Shown here: piece after piece, positions 2,540 through 22,451 of the stretch
How positions within the stretch are numbered: position 1 is the stretch's first letter
Layout of the letters: each line of letters starts with the position of its first letter
NCBI RefSeq assembly: GCF_018141545.1
Contig: NZ_CP064357.1
Coordinates: forward strand, 248,001-312,000
Direction of reading: 5' to 3'
From: Miltoncostaea oceani
GTDB lineage: Bacteria; Actinomycetota; Thermoleophilia; Miltoncostaeales; Miltoncostaeaceae
Length of the DNA: 64,000 nt
Translations under genes and position numbers: made by a program
The notes under the pieces: model-generated
Told to the model about the DNA's origin: nothing
The model's database searches: none
The model's input: the letters and a program-made list of their open reading frames with translations, nothing else

Positions 2540-2545
2540 TACGTT
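2540..2545 (+). promoter_or_regulatory. Putative -10 box of a leaderless gene
   Basis: TACGTT (TAnnnT) ends 7 bases before the ATG of the 107-residue gene, and there is no Shine-Dalgarno sequence in between, so transcription probably begins at or next to the start codon. Confidence 0.5.
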
Positions 2546-2552
2546 GTCGGTG

Positions 2553-2876
2553 ATGGATGACGAGAGCTACATCGAGTCCCTTCGGCAGCTCGGCCCGATG
2601 ACGCGCGAACAGGTCGACCGGTTCGCCGGCGACATGGCCCGGAGCTCCTACTTCCGGCAGCACGTGTCCGCCCTCGCGGCCCGTCAGGGAACAGCCATCC
2701 GGGAGCACGGCGATGAGCCTGTCCTTGCCTCCTGCAACCTGGAAGCCGTCCTCGGCATCGAGATGGCGTCCCACCTGCGCGCGCGACTGATCCTCCACCT
2801 GGAAGACATCGACAAGCTCGCCTTCTGCGACCGTGAGGGACTGCTCGCGGAGGCCCGCTTCATCCGCGGCGAGTAG
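2553..2876 (+). CDS. Small protein of unknown function, 107 aa
   Basis: I do not recognise this protein. It is acidic and probably all-helical, with no signal peptide or membrane segment, so it should be cytoplasmic. The ATG was chosen because a TACGTT box ends 7 bases upstream, as expected for a leaderless transcript; an upstream in-frame extension would run through that box. It lies on the same strand 55 bases after the coiled-coil membrane gene but seems to have its own promoter. Confidence 0.7.
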   Translation: MDDESYIESLRQLGPMTREQVDRFAGDMARSSYFRQHVSALAARQGTAIREHGDEPVLASCNLEAVLGIEMASHLRARLILHLEDIDKLAFCDREGLLAEARFIRGE

Positions 2877-2989
2877 TTCCTGAGGAACAATTGTCCTCGC
2901 GGTGTGCGCCCCCGAGGATGAGGTGGGAGTCTGCAGCGGTGCCGTCCTTCCAGGGTGAGATGGCCCCGAGCGCGACCCTGACCGGCTGA

Positions 2990-12860: not shown

Positions 12861-12889
12861 CACCTTATAGCCGCACGGGCTATAAGGTG
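12861..12889 (+). promoter_or_regulatory. NrtR-type operator in front of pnuC-nadR
   Basis: A palindrome with 12-base arms, CACCTTATAGCC and GGCTATAAGGTG, around a 5-base spacer. The core TTATAGCC-N5-GGCTATAA recurs only in front of nadE and pncB in this window. It overlaps a TATAAG sequence that could be the -10 box, so binding would block transcription. Confidence 0.8.
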
Positions 12890-13008
12890 GTGGTAGAACG
12901 CGAACGGGGCCACCTAACGAAGCCGTCCGAACGGGACGGTGGGCCGCCGGAGACCCTCGGGTCTCGGGAAAAGGTGGGGTCGGTCGCCCGACCTGAAAGG
13001 GGTCAGGA

Positions 13009-13701
13009 ATGACCACGAACGCACTACCTCGCCCGATCGGATGGGCACGCTTCACGCCACGGCCGCTGGACTACTGGGGCGCGCTCGTCGGCGCGCTCTT
13101 CCTGATCGGCGCCTACCAGGGCTGGCATCCCTTCTCGATCGTCGAGTCCTGGGGCTTCGTGACCGGGGCGGGGACGGTCTGGCTCGCCGCCCAGAACCGG
13201 ATCTCGAGCTGGCCGGTCGGGATCGTCAACGCGGCCTTCTTCATCGTCCTCTTCTACGAGGCGCGGCTGTTTGCTGACATGGGTTTGCAGTTCTACTTCA
13301 TCGCCACCTGCATCGGGGGTTGGTACCTGTGGCTGCGCGGCGGTGAGCGCAACGCGGGTCTGGTGGTCGGCCGGGCGCCTCGCATGGCCTACCCGGTCCT
13401 CGCCGCGGCTTTCGTGGCCGCGGTCGTCGTCATCGCCATGTACCTGACCCACATCGGTGGCGCCGCGCCGGTGCCCGACGCCGCGATCGCCGCCGGCAGC
13501 GTCATCGCCAGCTTCATGCTGATGCGCCGCTGGATCGAGAACTGGCTGGTCTGGATCGCCGTGGACGTGCTCAGCATCGGCGTCTACATGTGGAAGGACC
13601 TCCACCTGACGGCCTTCCTCTACCTGATCTTCCTGCTGATCTGCGTGTCGGCGCTGCGGACCTGGCGCGTCGAGCTGCGCCGGCGCGAGGAGGTGGCCTG
13701 A
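13009..13701 (+). CDS. pnuC: Nicotinamide riboside transporter PnuC
   Basis: A 230-residue protein with about seven membrane spans. Family hallmarks are visible: the QNRISSWPVGIVNAAFF segment, the FYEARLFADMGLQFYF segment with GGWYLWLRGG, and near the C-terminus WIAVDVLSIGVYMWKDLHLTA. PnuC carries nicotinamide riboside (or a related vitamin B3 form) across the inner membrane, driven by its phosphorylation inside. The kinase that would do this is encoded by the next gene, which overlaps by one base (TGATG). A good AAAGGGG site precedes the ATG, and the NrtR-type palindrome lies about 120 bases upstream. Confidence 0.92.
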   Translation: MTTNALPRPIGWARFTPRPLDYWGALVGALFLIGAYQGWHPFSIVESWGFVTGAGTVWLAAQNRISSWPVGIVNAAFFIVLFYEARLFADMGLQFYFIATCIGGWYLWLRGGERNAGLVVGRAPRMAYPVLAAAFVAAVVVIAMYLTHIGGAAPVPDAAIAAGSVIASFMLMRRWIENWLVWIAVDVLSIGVYMWKDLHLTAFLYLIFLLICVSALRTWRVELRRREEVA

Positions 13702-14786
13702 TGTACGAGACCGGGGTCGTCGTCGGCAAGTTCTACCCCTTCCACCTCGGCCACCAGCTGCTGGTCCGGGCGGCGCTCGAGCAGGCCCGGCGGGTCGACG
13801 TGATGCTCTGCGAGGGCCCTGGGGAGACCGCCGACGGCGCACGGCGCGCCGGCTGGATCCGACGGATCTTCTCGTCCGAGCTCGCCGCGGGGCGCCTGGT
13901 CGTCCATGAACTGGTCAACGACCTGCCCGGGGCTCCCGGACCCTGGGCGGATCGCACCTTCGAGGTCCTCGGCGGCCGCCACCCTGACGCCGTCTTCTCC
14001 TCGGAGGACTACGGCCACGCCTGGGCCGCCCGGATGGGCGCGGATCACGTGCTCGTCGACCGTGCGCGCCGGGAGGTCCCGGTCTCGGGGACGATCGTGC
14101 GCTCGGACCCGCTGTCGCATCTGGTCATGCTCGATCCGGTCGTGCGCGCTGACGTCGTTCCGCGGGTCGTCGTCCTCGGCGCGGAGAGCACCGGCACGAG
14201 CACCCTTGCCTGGGACCTCGCCGCGCACTACCGCACCGCCTCGGTCGCCGAGTACGGCCGCGAGCACACCGAGGCGACCAAGGTCAGCGGGGCGGAGGTC
14301 TGGACGCGCGAGGAGTTCGAGCTGATCGCTCGAGTCCAGGCAGAGCGCGAGGACGCGGCGGCAGGCAACGCCGACCCGGTCCTGGTCTGCGACACGGACC
14401 CCTTCGCAACGGGGCTCTGGTTCGAGCGGTACTTCCCGGGCGAGCGGTCCGAGGTCGTTGAGGCCTTCGCACGGGACCGGGCGAGGGGTGCCGGCGCGCC
14501 TCTCGGGCCCCTCGGCACGATCCTGACGAGCCCTCGGGGCGTCGAGCTCGAGCAGGACGGCTGGCGTGAGGGCGGGCGGGCGCGCCTGGCCATGCACGAC
14601 CGCTTCCGCGAGCGCCTGGGGGAGGAGGGGCGCTCGTTCCTCGAGGTCGTCGGATCTCGCGACGAGCGGCTCCAGCAGGCGGTCGCCTACTGCGACGGCC
14701 TGATCGTCCAGGCCCACAAGCCCTGGGCGGAGCCCGAGCCGGAGATCAGCCTCGCCGAATGGGAGGCATCGTTGATCGGGGCCTAG
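13701..14786 (+). CDS. nadR: NadR-like NMN adenylyltransferase / ribosylnicotinamide kinase
   Basis: A 361-residue two-domain enzyme. The N-terminal half is a nucleotidyltransferase with GKFYPFHLGHQ (the HxGH motif) and a later SGTIVRSDP, used to join NMN and ATP into NAD. The C-terminal half is a P-loop kinase with GAESTGTSTL at about residues 157-166, which phosphorylates nicotinamide riboside. There is no helix-turn-helix N-terminus as in the enterobacterial NadR repressor; here regulation seems to be by NrtR. The ATG overlaps the pnuC stop, so uptake and trapping of the substrate are produced together. Confidence 0.92.
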   Translation: MYETGVVVGKFYPFHLGHQLLVRAALEQARRVDVMLCEGPGETADGARRAGWIRRIFSSELAAGRLVVHELVNDLPGAPGPWADRTFEVLGGRHPDAVFSSEDYGHAWAARMGADHVLVDRARREVPVSGTIVRSDPLSHLVMLDPVVRADVVPRVVVLGAESTGTSTLAWDLAAHYRTASVAEYGREHTEATKVSGAEVWTREEFELIARVQAEREDAAAGNADPVLVCDTDPFATGLWFERYFPGERSEVVEAFARDRARGAGAPLGPLGTILTSPRGVELEQDGWREGGRARLAMHDRFRERLGEEGRSFLEVVGSRDERLQQAVAYCDGLIVQAHKPWAEPEPEISLAEWEASLIGA

Positions 14787-18665: not shown

Positions 18666-18688
18666 CTTATAGCCGTAAGGGCTATAAG
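18666..18688 (-). promoter_or_regulatory. NrtR-type operator in front of nadE
   Basis: CTTATAGCC-N5-GGCTATAAG, perfect 9-base arms, centred about 33 bases before the nadE GTG. It shares the core with the sites at 12861 and 18795. Confidence 0.8.
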
Positions 18689-18794: not shown

Positions 18795-18815
18795 TTATAG
18801 CCGAACAGGCTATAA
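18795..18815 (+). promoter_or_regulatory. NrtR-type operator in front of the pncB operon
   Basis: TTATAGCC-GAACA-GGCTATAA, perfect 8-base arms, 52 bases before the pncB GTG. The right arm may overlap the -10 box. Confidence 0.8.
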
Positions 18816-18867: not shown

Positions 18868-19992
18868 GTGACCACCGAGATGACGCACCAGCACGAGGCG
18901 CCGACTGGCGGTCAGGACCGTCTCGAGGCCCTCAGCCGCGCACAGGTCGAGGCGCTCCGCCGGGGCGACTACTCGGACGTCTACTTCAACTCGACCAAGC
19001 GGATCCTCGAGCGGACCGGCCATCGGCCCCGCGTCCTGATGCAGGTCTTCCAGCGCCACGAAGCCGTCCTCTGCGGCATCGACGAGGCCATTCGGGTCCT
19101 GCGCGAGGGGACCGGCCACCTCGACCCCTCGGGGAACTGGGTGCCCGGCTTCGATGACCTGGTGGTGCGCGCACTCCCCGAGGGGGCTCGCATCGGCCCC
19201 TGGGAGCCTGTGATGACGATCGAGGGCGACTACGCCTCCTTCGCCCACCTGGAGACCGTCTACCTCGGCCTGCTCGCCCGTCGCACCCTGATCGCGACCA
19301 ACACCGCCGCGGTCGTCGCAGCCGCCGGCGCGATCCCGGTCCTCTTCTTCGCCGCGCGCTTCGATCACCACGCGACCCAGGAGGGCGATGGCTGGGCGGC
19401 GCACATCGGCGGCGCGGCGGGGGTCTCGACCGCGTCCCAGGCGGCCCTGTTCGGTGGGGCGCCGGTCGGCACGGTCCCGCACGCCCTGATCGCGGCCTAC
19501 GGTGGCGACACCGTCGCCGCGGCGCGCGCCTTCGCCGAGGTCTATGCCGGCACCGGCATGCGCCTCGCCCCTCTCGTGGACTTCCACAACGACTGCACCA
19601 GGACGGCGGTCGAGGTCGCCGACGCCCTCGGCTCGGATCTCTGGGGCGTGCGGCTCGACACCGGCGGCCAGATGGTCGACCGGGCCCTCGTGGACCGGAT
19701 GGGCGGCTTCCGCCCGACCGGCGTCTGCGCCGAGCTCGTCTTCGCCGTCCGCGAGGCGCTCGACGCCGCGGGCCACCAGCGCATCAAGATCCTCGTCTCG
19801 GGCGGCTTCGACGCCGCGAAGATCCGGAGCTTCGCGGCCCGGGGCGTCCCGGTGGACGCCTACGGAGTCGGCTCCTCGCTGCTGCGCGGCGAGAACGACT
19901 TCACCGCCGACATCGTCCGGACCGACGGCGCCCCCTCGGCCAAGGTCGGGCGCGCGGAGATCCCTTCGGATCGCCTGGAGCGGGTCCGATGA
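18868..19992 (+). CDS. pncB: Nicotinate phosphoribosyltransferase
   Basis: A 374-residue enzyme that joins nicotinate and PRPP to give nicotinate mononucleotide. Family features include FDHHATQ, GVSTASQAALFGGAPVGTVP followed by HALIAAYGGDTVAAARAF, the VDFHND segment, WGVRLDTGG and the C-terminal ILVSGGFD with AYGVGSSLL that holds the phosphate. This is the shorter branch of the family. The GTG has a strong GAGGAGG site and an NrtR-type palindrome upstream. It is the first gene of a five-gene run with 4-base overlaps or tiny gaps. Confidence 0.93.
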   Translation: MTTEMTHQHEAPTGGQDRLEALSRAQVEALRRGDYSDVYFNSTKRILERTGHRPRVLMQVFQRHEAVLCGIDEAIRVLREGTGHLDPSGNWVPGFDDLVVRALPEGARIGPWEPVMTIEGDYASFAHLETVYLGLLARRTLIATNTAAVVAAAGAIPVLFFAARFDHHATQEGDGWAAHIGGAAGVSTASQAALFGGAPVGTVPHALIAAYGGDTVAAARAFAEVYAGTGMRLAPLVDFHNDCTRTAVEVADALGSDLWGVRLDTGGQMVDRALVDRMGGFRPTGVCAELVFAVREALDAAGHQRIKILVSGGFDAAKIRSFAARGVPVDAYGVGSSLLRGENDFTADIVRTDGAPSAKVGRAEIPSDRLERVR

Positions 19993-20423
19993 ACGCACTC
20001 GCCCCACACACGCTCGCTGAGCGGTTCGAGGCCAACCAGACGAACGCCCCGGATCCGGCGCTGGCGATGCTGGCGAGCCGGATGCGGGTGATCGCCGAGA
20101 CGCGGGCGGAGATCTCCCGCCGGCGCGGCGACGCCCGGGCGGAGGCAGAGAACCGCCGTCAGCTCGCCGAGGTCGTCGCCTTCGAGGTCGGCCTCGGGAT
20201 CGCCCATGCCCAGGTGCCTGCGACGGTTGAGGCGCTGATCGCGGGGATCAACCAGCGGGTGCCCGCCCTCGCGCACTGGGCCCGTCTCGATGAGGCCGGG
20301 GCGATGGAGATCGACCCCGAGTGGGCGCTGTACGAGCACCTGCACGAGAAGTTCGGCGGTCTCGACCCCGCAGCGGTGTCCGAGCGCGCCGTCCCCGTCC
20401 CCGACCCGCCCCGAGGAGGCTGA
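19989..20423 (+). CDS. Unknown 144-aa protein inside the NAD salvage operon
   Basis: I do not recognise this protein. It is probably helical, with an Arg/Glu-rich stretch at about residues 30-60 and a C-terminal WARLDEAGAMEIDPEWALYE segment; there is no signal peptide, membrane span or Cys cluster. Its ATG overlaps the pncB stop (ATGA), and pncA starts 2 bases after its own stop. Its conserved-looking place between two steps of the same pathway suggests a role in nicotinate handling or control of PncB/PncA, but nothing in the sequence says which. Confidence 0.75.
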   Translation: MNALAPHTLAERFEANQTNAPDPALAMLASRMRVIAETRAEISRRRGDARAEAENRRQLAEVVAFEVGLGIAHAQVPATVEALIAGINQRVPALAHWARLDEAGAMEIDPEWALYEHLHEKFGGLDPAAVSERAVPVPDPPRGG

Positions 20424-20425
20424 CC

Positions 20426-21118
20426 ATGAACTCCACCACGATCCTGTTCGACATCGACACCCAGAACGACTTCTGCCTGCCCACCGGGGCGCTGAGCGTT
20501 TCCGGAGCCGATGTCCAGAGCGTCATCGACGCCCAGGAGCGCCTGATCGACTGGGCCCACCGTGGCCTGCGTGTGCACGTGGCGAGCGCCGACGATCACC
20601 TGGTCAGCGACGAGGAGATCTCCGACCAGCCCGACTGGAAGACGACCTTCCCGCCGCACTGCCTGCGCACGAGCGCCGGGGCTCAGAAGGTGCCCTGGAC
20701 CATCCAGGACAACCCGCTGGTGCTCGGCGATGGTGCCGTTGAGGAGCCTCGCCTCCTGGAGATGGTCCGCGCCCACCGCGAGATCCTGCTCCTCAAGAGC
20801 CGCACCGACGTCTTCACCAACCCGCACACCGCATCCGTGCTGGAGATCCTCGATCCCGACCGGATCGTCGTCTTCGGTGTCGCCACCGACATCTGTGTCG
20901 CCGCGGCGATCGCCGGCCTTCGCCGCCACATCGCCACCGACATCTGCGTCTCCCCGGCGATCGGCAGCCTCCGCCAACGCACCCACGCGGAGATCGTCCT
21001 GGCCCTCGACGCCTGCGCCGGCCTCGACGCCGCACGCTCGGAGGCCCTGGTCGCCTCCTGGGCGGCCGCCGGTGCGATCATCTCCGACAGCCGCACGATC
21101 ACCCAGGAAGGAACATGA
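20426..21118 (+). CDS. pncA: Nicotinamidase (isochorismatase fold) with duplicated Cys segment
   Basis: A 230-residue amidase that would turn nicotinamide into nicotinate for PncB. The catalytic triad candidates are Asp11 (DTQNDF), Lys124 (LLKSRTDVF) and Cys157 (GVATDICV). The metal-site region DDHL...FPPHCLRTSAG is typical of nicotinamidases. Residues 153-169 and 170-186 are a tandem repeat of 17 residues, so ATDICV occurs twice (Cys157 and Cys174); 41 of 51 bases match between copies. The family normally has a single copy, so this is a 17-residue insertion beside the active site. A GAGGAGG site precedes the ATG. Confidence 0.88.
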   Translation: MNSTTILFDIDTQNDFCLPTGALSVSGADVQSVIDAQERLIDWAHRGLRVHVASADDHLVSDEEISDQPDWKTTFPPHCLRTSAGAQKVPWTIQDNPLVLGDGAVEEPRLLEMVRAHREILLLKSRTDVFTNPHTASVLEILDPDRIVVFGVATDICVAAAIAGLRRHIATDICVSPAIGSLRQRTHAEIVLALDACAGLDAARSEALVASWAAAGAIISDSRTITQEGT

Positions 21119-21855
21119 GCGCCGACGAGCTCGACCCCGAGGACCGCAAGTTCCTGGCCGGCTATGACCCGGAGGCCTACGAGAGGCTCTCGGTCGCCGT
21201 TGACGTCGCCCTGGTGACGGTCATCGACGGCCGCCTGCGGGCGCTCACGGTCAAGCGGCCCGAGCCGCCCTACCGGGGATGGCAGGCACTGCCGGGCGGC
21301 TTCCTCGGCGTCGATGAGTCTCCTGAGCGGGCCGCGGCACGGGTGCTGGCCGACAAGACGGGCCTCGAGGGGGTCTACCTCGAGCAGCTCTACACCTTCG
21401 GTGAGCCCGGCCGCGACCCGCGCACCAGGGTGCTCTCGATCGCCCACTACGCGCTCGTCCCGGCCTCTCGCCTGAGCAAGGCCCCCGGCCCTGGCTCACA
21501 GCTCGCCGAGCTCGTCGTGTCCTGGGAGGGCGAGGAGGGCGGCCCCGCCGGCGTCGTGATCGACCGAGCCCCCCGGCGCCTCGCCTTCGACCATGCGCGC
21601 ATCCTCGGGATGGTCGTCCAGCGGCTGCGCGGCAAGATCGCCTACGCGCCCGTCGGCTACGAGCTGCTCGGCGACACCTTCACCCTGCGCGAGCTCCAGG
21701 AGGTCCATGAGGCCATCCTCGGGCGCGGGATGTCAAAGCCCGCCTTCCGCCGGCGGATGCTCGCAACCGGGGACCTCACGGCCACGGGGGAGATGGAGAG
21801 CGACGTCGCCTACCGGCCGGCTGAGCTCTACCGCTTCACCGGACGCCCCGGATGA
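21115..21855 (+). CDS. nrtR: NrtR, Nudix-related repressor of NAD metabolism
   Basis: A 246-residue protein with an N-terminal Nudix-like domain (about 20-165) and a C-terminal winged helix (about 170-240, SKPAFRRRMLATGDLTATG then RPAELYRFTGRPG). The Nudix box is degenerate: where active enzymes have RE and EE it reads VDESPERAAARVLADKTGL, as expected for a sensor that binds ADP-ribose or a related ligand without efficient hydrolysis. In known cases ligand binding releases the repressor from its palindromic operator. It is encoded inside the operon it likely controls and overlaps pncA by 4 bases. A GGAAGG site is present. Confidence 0.92.
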   Translation: MSADELDPEDRKFLAGYDPEAYERLSVAVDVALVTVIDGRLRALTVKRPEPPYRGWQALPGGFLGVDESPERAAARVLADKTGLEGVYLEQLYTFGEPGRDPRTRVLSIAHYALVPASRLSKAPGPGSQLAELVVSWEGEEGGPAGVVIDRAPRRLAFDHARILGMVVQRLRGKIAYAPVGYELLGDTFTLRELQEVHEAILGRGMSKPAFRRRMLATGDLTATGEMESDVAYRPAELYRFTGRPG

Positions 21856-22451
21856 CCATCCCTCTCGATGGCCAGCTCGTGGGCGAGACCAGACGCGACG
21901 CTGTCCTCGATCTCACCCACCGAGGGCACCTCGTCTACTCGGGGCATGTCTCGGTCGAGGTGCTCGATCCCGACGCCGCTCACCCGTATGAGCGGGTCGC
22001 CGTCCGCTCGAAGGACGTCGTCCATGTGCTCCCTCTCGATGATCAGGGGCGGACGGTCCTCGTCTCCCAGCATCGCCATCCGATCGGCGCCCCTGTGCTC
22101 GAGCTGCCGGCTGGCGGGATCGAGGCCGGTCAGTCGCCGCTCGAGGCCGCGCACCGCGAGCTCGGCGAGGAGACCGGCCAGCGCGCCGGGTCGATGGTGA
22201 TGCTCGGCAGCTTCCTCACCTGCCCCGGTGTGATGGATGAACGCGCTCACCTGTTCCTGGCGCTCGACTGCCACCCGGACCCCGACGCCCCGCCGGCGGA
22301 TGAACATGAGGAGATCGCGCTGGAGCGGGTTCCACTCTCTGAGGTGCTCGGTCGTCTCGCTCACAGCGGCGTCTCGGATGCCAAGAGCACCTTGCTTGTG
22401 CTGCTCAGTCAGGCGTACCTTCAGCGCCAGACGGGTTTCGCCGGGTCCTGA
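21852..22451 (+). CDS. ADP-ribose pyrophosphatase-type Nudix hydrolase
   Basis: A 199-residue enzyme of the NudF/ADP-ribose pyrophosphatase class. The Nudix box is at about residues 88-109 (AGQSPLEAAHRELGEETG): the catalytic RE and EE are intact, while the first conserved Glu is Gln. Upstream elements ELPAGGIEAG and the later FLTCPGVMDERAHLFLA fit this subfamily. It would degrade ADP-ribose, the likely NrtR ligand, to AMP and ribose 5-phosphate, which both recycles NAD breakdown products and closes a feedback loop. It overlaps nrtR by 4 bases and ends the operon. Confidence 0.85.
   Translation: MTIPLDGQLVGETRRDAVLDLTHRGHLVYSGHVSVEVLDPDAAHPYERVAVRSKDVVHVLPLDDQGRTVLVSQHRHPIGAPVLELPAGGIEAGQSPLEAAHRELGEETGQRAGSMVMLGSFLTCPGVMDERAHLFLALDCHPDPDAPPADEHEEIALERVPLSEVLGRLAHSGVSDAKSTLLVLLSQAYLQRQTGFAGS

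Follow-up and report, generated by a model that had tools for sequence, protein, structure and literature searches.

An orphan gene between pncB and pncA in a probably NrtR-controlled NAD-salvage operon of Miltoncostaea oceani

The closest described systems are the NrtR-regulated NAD operons of M. smegmatis (nrtR/nadABC) and S. suis (nadR-pnuC-nrtR), for which passages of PMC6800001 describe a Nudix-WHD regulator adjoining NAD genes, a palindromic operator and auto-control of the operon, features that the locus reported here appears to have in common with them. According to the same passages NrtR operators vary between lineages, that of M. smegmatis being GTTTTCGA-N7-TCGAAAAC. The window analyzed here, a stretch of 64,000 nucleotides from Miltoncostaea oceani, differs from the operons in these passages in carrying another palindrome and an additional gene, orf144, and, compared with nadABC, its putative regulon is made up of the salvage genes pncB, pncA, nadE, pnuC and nadR. 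The second point of comparison is the pncB-pncA pair itself. In four genomes of the same class (G038, G246, G288 and G316), and likewise in records from Calditrichaceae, Bryobacterales and Arcobacter, pncB stands directly before pncA and is translationally coupled to it as in the window, but, unlike in the window operon, without an intervening gene. A gene of the kind of orf144 at a pncB-pncA junction was not recognized in any description in the literature searched.

The coordinates of the features discussed are collected in Table 1. On the forward strand the genes run pncB-orf144-pncA-nrtR-nudix, with overlaps between pncA and nrtR (21115-21118) and between nrtR and nudix (21852-21855). PncB scores above cut-off with the PRK08662-type NCBIfam model and below it with the PRK07188-type model (NF005529), to which it aligns over positions 17-354 of 358, the C-terminus being present. 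Because the equivalog scores of PRK07188-type pncB, pncA, nrtR and the nadR-like gene fall below the curated NCBIfam cut-offs, the names of these genes are to be read at family level.

Table 1. Features of the NAD gene neighborhood, in window coordinates
Feature	Coordinates	Strand	Basis or remark
Palindrome TTATAGCC-N5-GGCTATAA, probable NrtR operator before pnuC-nadR	12865..12885	.	
pnuC, nicotinamide mononucleotide/riboside-type transporter	13009..13701	+	PF04973 3.2e-45
nadR-like NMN adenylyltransferase/ribosylnicotinamide kinase; presumed start codon	13701..14786	+	TIGR01526 156.6 bits (cut-off 341)
nadE, glutamine-dependent NAD synthetase, divergent from pncB; presumed start codon	16776..18644	-	NF010588 612 bits, cut-off 479
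Palindrome, divergent promoter region, nadE side	18667..18687	.	
Palindrome, divergent promoter region, pncB side	18795..18815	.	
pncB, nicotinate phosphoribosyltransferase, 374 aa	18868..19992	+	NF006415 244.1 bits (cut-off 243); NF005529 326 bits (cut-off 378)
orf144 (P0001), orphan gene, 144 aa	19989..20423	+	ORF list, coding signature, no family match
pncA, nicotinamidase of divergent subfamily, 230 aa	20426..21118	+	PF00857 E 1.7e-13; matches M. tuberculosis-type PncA 3pl1
51-base tandem duplication within pncA; motif ATDICV around the invariant cysteine repeated	20880..20981	+	82% identical
nrtR, Nudix-related transcriptional regulator	21115..21855	+	PF21906 1e-20, PF00293 9e-11; 3gz5/3gz6-like 2.8e-29
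Second Nudix hydrolase gene, NudE/ADP-ribose pyrophosphatase-like	21852..22451	+	PF00293 1.2e-17; NudE model 73.9 bits (cut-off 169)

Both domains of the window NrtR, Nudix (PF00293) and winged helix (PF21906), score above cut-off, and a 21-base palindrome with exact half-sites, TTATAGCC-N5-GGCTATAA, is found in the window in three copies, all beside NAD genes, against zero copies expected from shuffled sequences. Exact matches to its 19-base core, TATAGCC-N5-GGCTATA, are confined to these three sites in the whole 4.54-Mb genome; at up to two mismatches the core yields the three exact sites and one two-mismatch site, and a backward control pattern yields five sites, so that the weight of the palindrome evidence lies on exactness and place. 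As one exact copy precedes pnuC-nadR and two lie between nadE and pncB, control of the operon by NrtR through these putative operators is supported, and palindromes and gene overlaps suggest that orf144 and the NAD genes form one operon. The operon had been called NrtR-controlled in an earlier note on this DNA; the regulator domains and the three exact palindromes bear this out as far as they go, whereas the binding of NrtR to these sites we infer. The pnuC-nadR pair (12865-14786 with its palindrome) is a probable second arm of the same NrtR regulon.

The gene structure given for orf144 in the earlier note proved correct in sequence, ORF list and translation: a 144-residue frame, coupled to pncB by ATGA and separated from pncA by 2 bases. 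Its ATG (19989-19991) shares two bases with the pncB stop TGA (19990-19992); between its own stop TGA (20421-20423) and the pncA ATG at 20426 stand the two bases CC, and GAGGAGG, a ribosome-binding-type sequence for pncA, lies within its last codons. GC content by codon position is 0.80/0.50/0.90, like that of the neighboring genes. That orf144 might be a chance open frame and no gene deserves mention, given that GC-rich DNA yields many spurious ORFs and that the antisense frame is likewise open, but we consider this very improbable. Its coding score is 0.341 bits/codon, within the range (0.134-0.605) of 109 true-frame control segments of about 144 codons each from seven neighboring NAD genes, 21 of which score below it, whereas none of 545 wrong-frame segments reaches it, the highest of these scoring 0.154; moreover, without orf144, 433 bases would separate two coupled genes. 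With a score above all wrong-frame controls, orf144 is taken as a genuine protein-coding gene and not as a chance frame.

Searches for relatives of orf144 gave no homologue. Pfam, NCBIfam and PHROGs held no profile match at E ≤ 1, and relaxing the threshold to E ≤ 10 brought none from Pfam, NCBIfam, PADLOC or PDB sequences; there was no homologue by tblastn in phages and plasmids, and none by pattern scans, which reach close relatives only, in viral contigs and genome contigs. Whole-genome searches likewise returned no homologue among 61 relatives, 399 genomes of the class, 103 of the family of G038 and 188 of the phylum, samples that overlap and in which very distant relatives would be missed. 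The non-self matches that did appear, around E 0.001, numbered seven in six other genomes in the 61-relative sample (E 5e-4 to 0.009), three in the class sample, zero in the family sample and three in the phylum sample, with one match (L002) common to the 61-, 399- and 188-genome samples. L003, L119 and L120 were rejected, judged by eye, as antisense to a better reading frame, L002, also by eye, as lying inside a large LuxR/ATPase-like frame, and L154 and L155 on account of internal stops; the context check took in L002, L003, L119 and L120, and the five matches L004-L008 have E values of 0.005-0.009. Co-occurrence of orf144 with pncB, pncA or nrtR in other genomes, for which the earlier note had proposed a search, was thus not found, no search having returned a homologue, and homologues scattered away from NAD genes were likewise not seen.

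The absence of transport, Nudix and deamidase motifs that had been reported for orf144 holds up, there being no match to such families, and orf144 does not encode an enzyme for any of the known NAD steps. Searched against Pfam at E ≤ 10, it matches neither PF00293 (Nudix hydrolases) nor PF00857 (nicotinamidases/isochorismatases), the latter being the family that the adjoining pncA does match. No Pfam or NCBIfam match marks it as a NAPRTase/QRPTase domain split from or added to PncB, which is itself complete over its model, and PF04973, the family of NMN/niacin transporters, is not matched by orf144, the PnuC of the operon being encoded at 13009-13701. A degenerate Nudix gene was rejected after orf144 gave no alignment with the Nudix gene found in the same slot in G165 (see below), and a frameshifted known gene after a Pfam search of the two other forward frames and, among the three antisense frames, the stop-free one returned no match. 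From its coding signature and the lack of a detectable homologue, orf144 is classed as a lineage-restricted ORFan. It resembles ORFan genes generally in being short, without detectable homologue and of good codon signature, and differs from them in being tightly coupled inside a metabolic operon.

We then compared the pncB|pncA junction across genomes, the survey covering the fetched, best-matching part of 209 class genomes with a pncB match. In family f3, 6 of the 13 pncB loci examined carry a pncA of the window subfamily downstream on the same strand. Four of these pairs abut or overlap (L127, L136, L137 and L139), in one (L135) the genes stand about 110 bases apart, with apparently non-coding DNA between them, and one, L133 in genome G165, has between pncB and pncA a 149-codon PF00293 Nudix gene (2540-2989, minus strand) that overlaps the pncB stop. 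This last gene is like orf144 in its length of some 150 codons, its slot and its overlap with the pncB stop, but it is a Nudix hydrolase without similarity to orf144. Four further pairs of the class (G037, G062, G046 and G041) have a more distant pncA, the match to which starts 58-128 bases after the pncB stop, and most other pncB loci examined are without pncA downstream. In G256 (L140, about 1224-2000) another, longer isochorismatase-like frame starts directly at the pncB stop. In other phyla, four of five pncB-pncA pairs abut or overlap, and in the fifth (L095) the pncB frame runs on. orf144 is absent from all 10 distinct other same-strand pairs of the class and, overall, from every other same-strand pncB-pncA pair with a resolvable junction. 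Judged from these sequences, pncB-pncA coupling would be old and orf144 an addition at one place; since pncB and pncA overlap in several lineages, the absence of orf144 is likelier the ancestral state than the outcome of loss elsewhere. With pairs elsewhere usually abutting or overlapping, and a Nudix gene occupying the same slot once, the slot appears variable and orf144 looks like a lineage-specific insertion into it.

The window contig measures 815,643 bases, the other large contig of the assembly 3,679,875 bases and the genomes of genus mates 2.8-3.4 Mb, and we take the window contig to be a probable second replicon. The large contig carries its own pncB (C1:447266-448300), 61% identical to that of the window and without a pncA of the window kind in the 15-kb stretch taken around it (L039), as well as its own nrtR-pncA pair (C1:1964620-1965782). 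The latter (L116, L156; G000:C1:1964620-1965825) is preceded by the palindrome CGACAATAA-N12-TTATTGTCG, present in one copy in the genome. This palindrome differs from that of the window. Beside the genes of the large contig, the window operon is thus a second set for NAD salvage, equipped with a probable operator of its own, and the genome apparently holds two separate NrtR circuits. A viral origin of the operon was considered and rejected, no relative of pncA or pncB having been found in viral contigs; two nrtR relatives were found there, each without a convincing further gene of the operon in its vicinity.

The orf144 product is a protein of 15.6 kDa with a pI of 5.35, 20% alanine and no cysteine. 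An AlphaFold2 model from the single sequence contains helices only, at low confidence (mean pLDDT 52.8, pTM 0.39), and comparison of this low-confidence model with known folds gave a best Z of 5.7 (a designed helical protein and the Klebsiella putative structural protein 7tmv), the background level for helical models, and thus no usable fold match in the PDB. The product is probably all-helical, cytosolic and mildly acidic; structure prediction, recommended earlier as a check, accordingly delivered a helical composition, with low confidence and without a usable fold. An RNA element at the orf144 junctions was rejected on structure z scores of 1.07 and -0.07 and no Rfam match.

The earlier note had put orf144 forward as a candidate NAD-salvage accessory factor. 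Its premises stand: the gene is real and tightly coupled on both sides, the operon is probably under NrtR, and transporter, Nudix and deamidase families are not matched. The comparison of genomes gave the proposal no support: as a conserved accessory factor orf144 would have homologues linked to NAD genes, and none was found in our searches. What speaks for the accessory reading, and supports it in part, is position and probable shared regulation. We tentatively favor, at somewhat less than even confidence, a lineage-restricted, co-expressed helical protein that acts as a local accessory of PncB/PncA and is dispensable to the core pathway, dispensable since other genomes run the PncB/PncA pair without it. 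On this proposal orf144 would have entered the pncB|pncA junction of the NAD-salvage operon on the 815-kb second contig and would be co-transcribed with the operon under the local NrtR; ribosomes leaving pncB would enter orf144 at the ATGA and pncA 2 bases further on, and the product may serve this PncB/PncA copy as a helical adaptor or modulator through protein-protein contacts. Counting against it, position is the one tie of the product to PncB and PncA, the structure model is poor, and operons can take up a gene without any selective effect; with a single orf144 sequence, selection on the protein is beyond measurement. What we hold firmly is a real orphan gene inserted in a variable slot, any action on NAD salvage being inference.

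Nearly as likely as the local accessory role is a passenger gene: orf144 would have come in with a function that has nothing to do with NAD and would merely be co-transcribed from the junction. That the slot takes differing content (in G165 a Nudix gene, in other genomes no gene), that no co-occurrence with NAD genes was found and that the window belongs to an 815-kb contig separate from the one of 3.68 Mb all agree with such a passenger, but tight coupling kept on both sides is rare for a random insertion, and the one other identified occupant of the slot belongs to a family whose members often act in nucleotide and NAD turnover. We find it improbable that orf144 is an old component of NAD operons evolving too fast to be recognized by sequence: small helical proteins do diverge fast and single-sequence searches miss distant relatives, but in most of the related operons no slot physically exists, pncB and pncA overlapping or abutting. 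Slightly less probable again is a translational spacer, of which the frame would matter, for coupling or for the dosage of PncA relative to PncB, and the protein would not. The ribosome-binding sequence of pncA in the last orf144 codons and the stop 2 bases before the pncA start would suit this role; a codon signature as strong as that of real neighbors, and the lack of unusual RNA structure at either junction, argue against it. As a lineage-restricted insertion into a coupled pncB|pncA junction, orf144 offers a clean case for how operons gain parts and shows, for annotation, that tight operon position by itself is no proof of a conserved NAD gene; were its product to bind PncB or PncA, NAD salvage would have a new regulator.

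The PncA of the window operon is itself unusual. The tandem duplication lengthens the protein by about 17 residues immediately behind the cysteine and is absent from all seven aligned relatives, while D11, K124, C157, D56, H58 and H78, invariant in the alignment with relatives, are kept; after the M. tuberculosis and P. horikoshii enzymes, we take the first three to be the catalytic triad and the last three the metal site. A PncA model built from eight sequences reached a mean pLDDT of 74.9 and a pTM of 0.80; its confidence is low around residues 151-180. As a bolder and improbable variant of the accessory proposal, orf144 may be a new lineage-specific helical subunit that binds PncB-PncA and tunes or channels the flux from nicotinamide to nicotinate mononucleotide, and it could have been recruited as a partner needed by the PncA with the 17-residue duplication by the presumed catalytic cysteine. 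The window contig carries one more pncA of this rare subfamily (L126, G000:C2:124321-124944), which is 55% identical to the first and has none of the other window-operon genes nearby.
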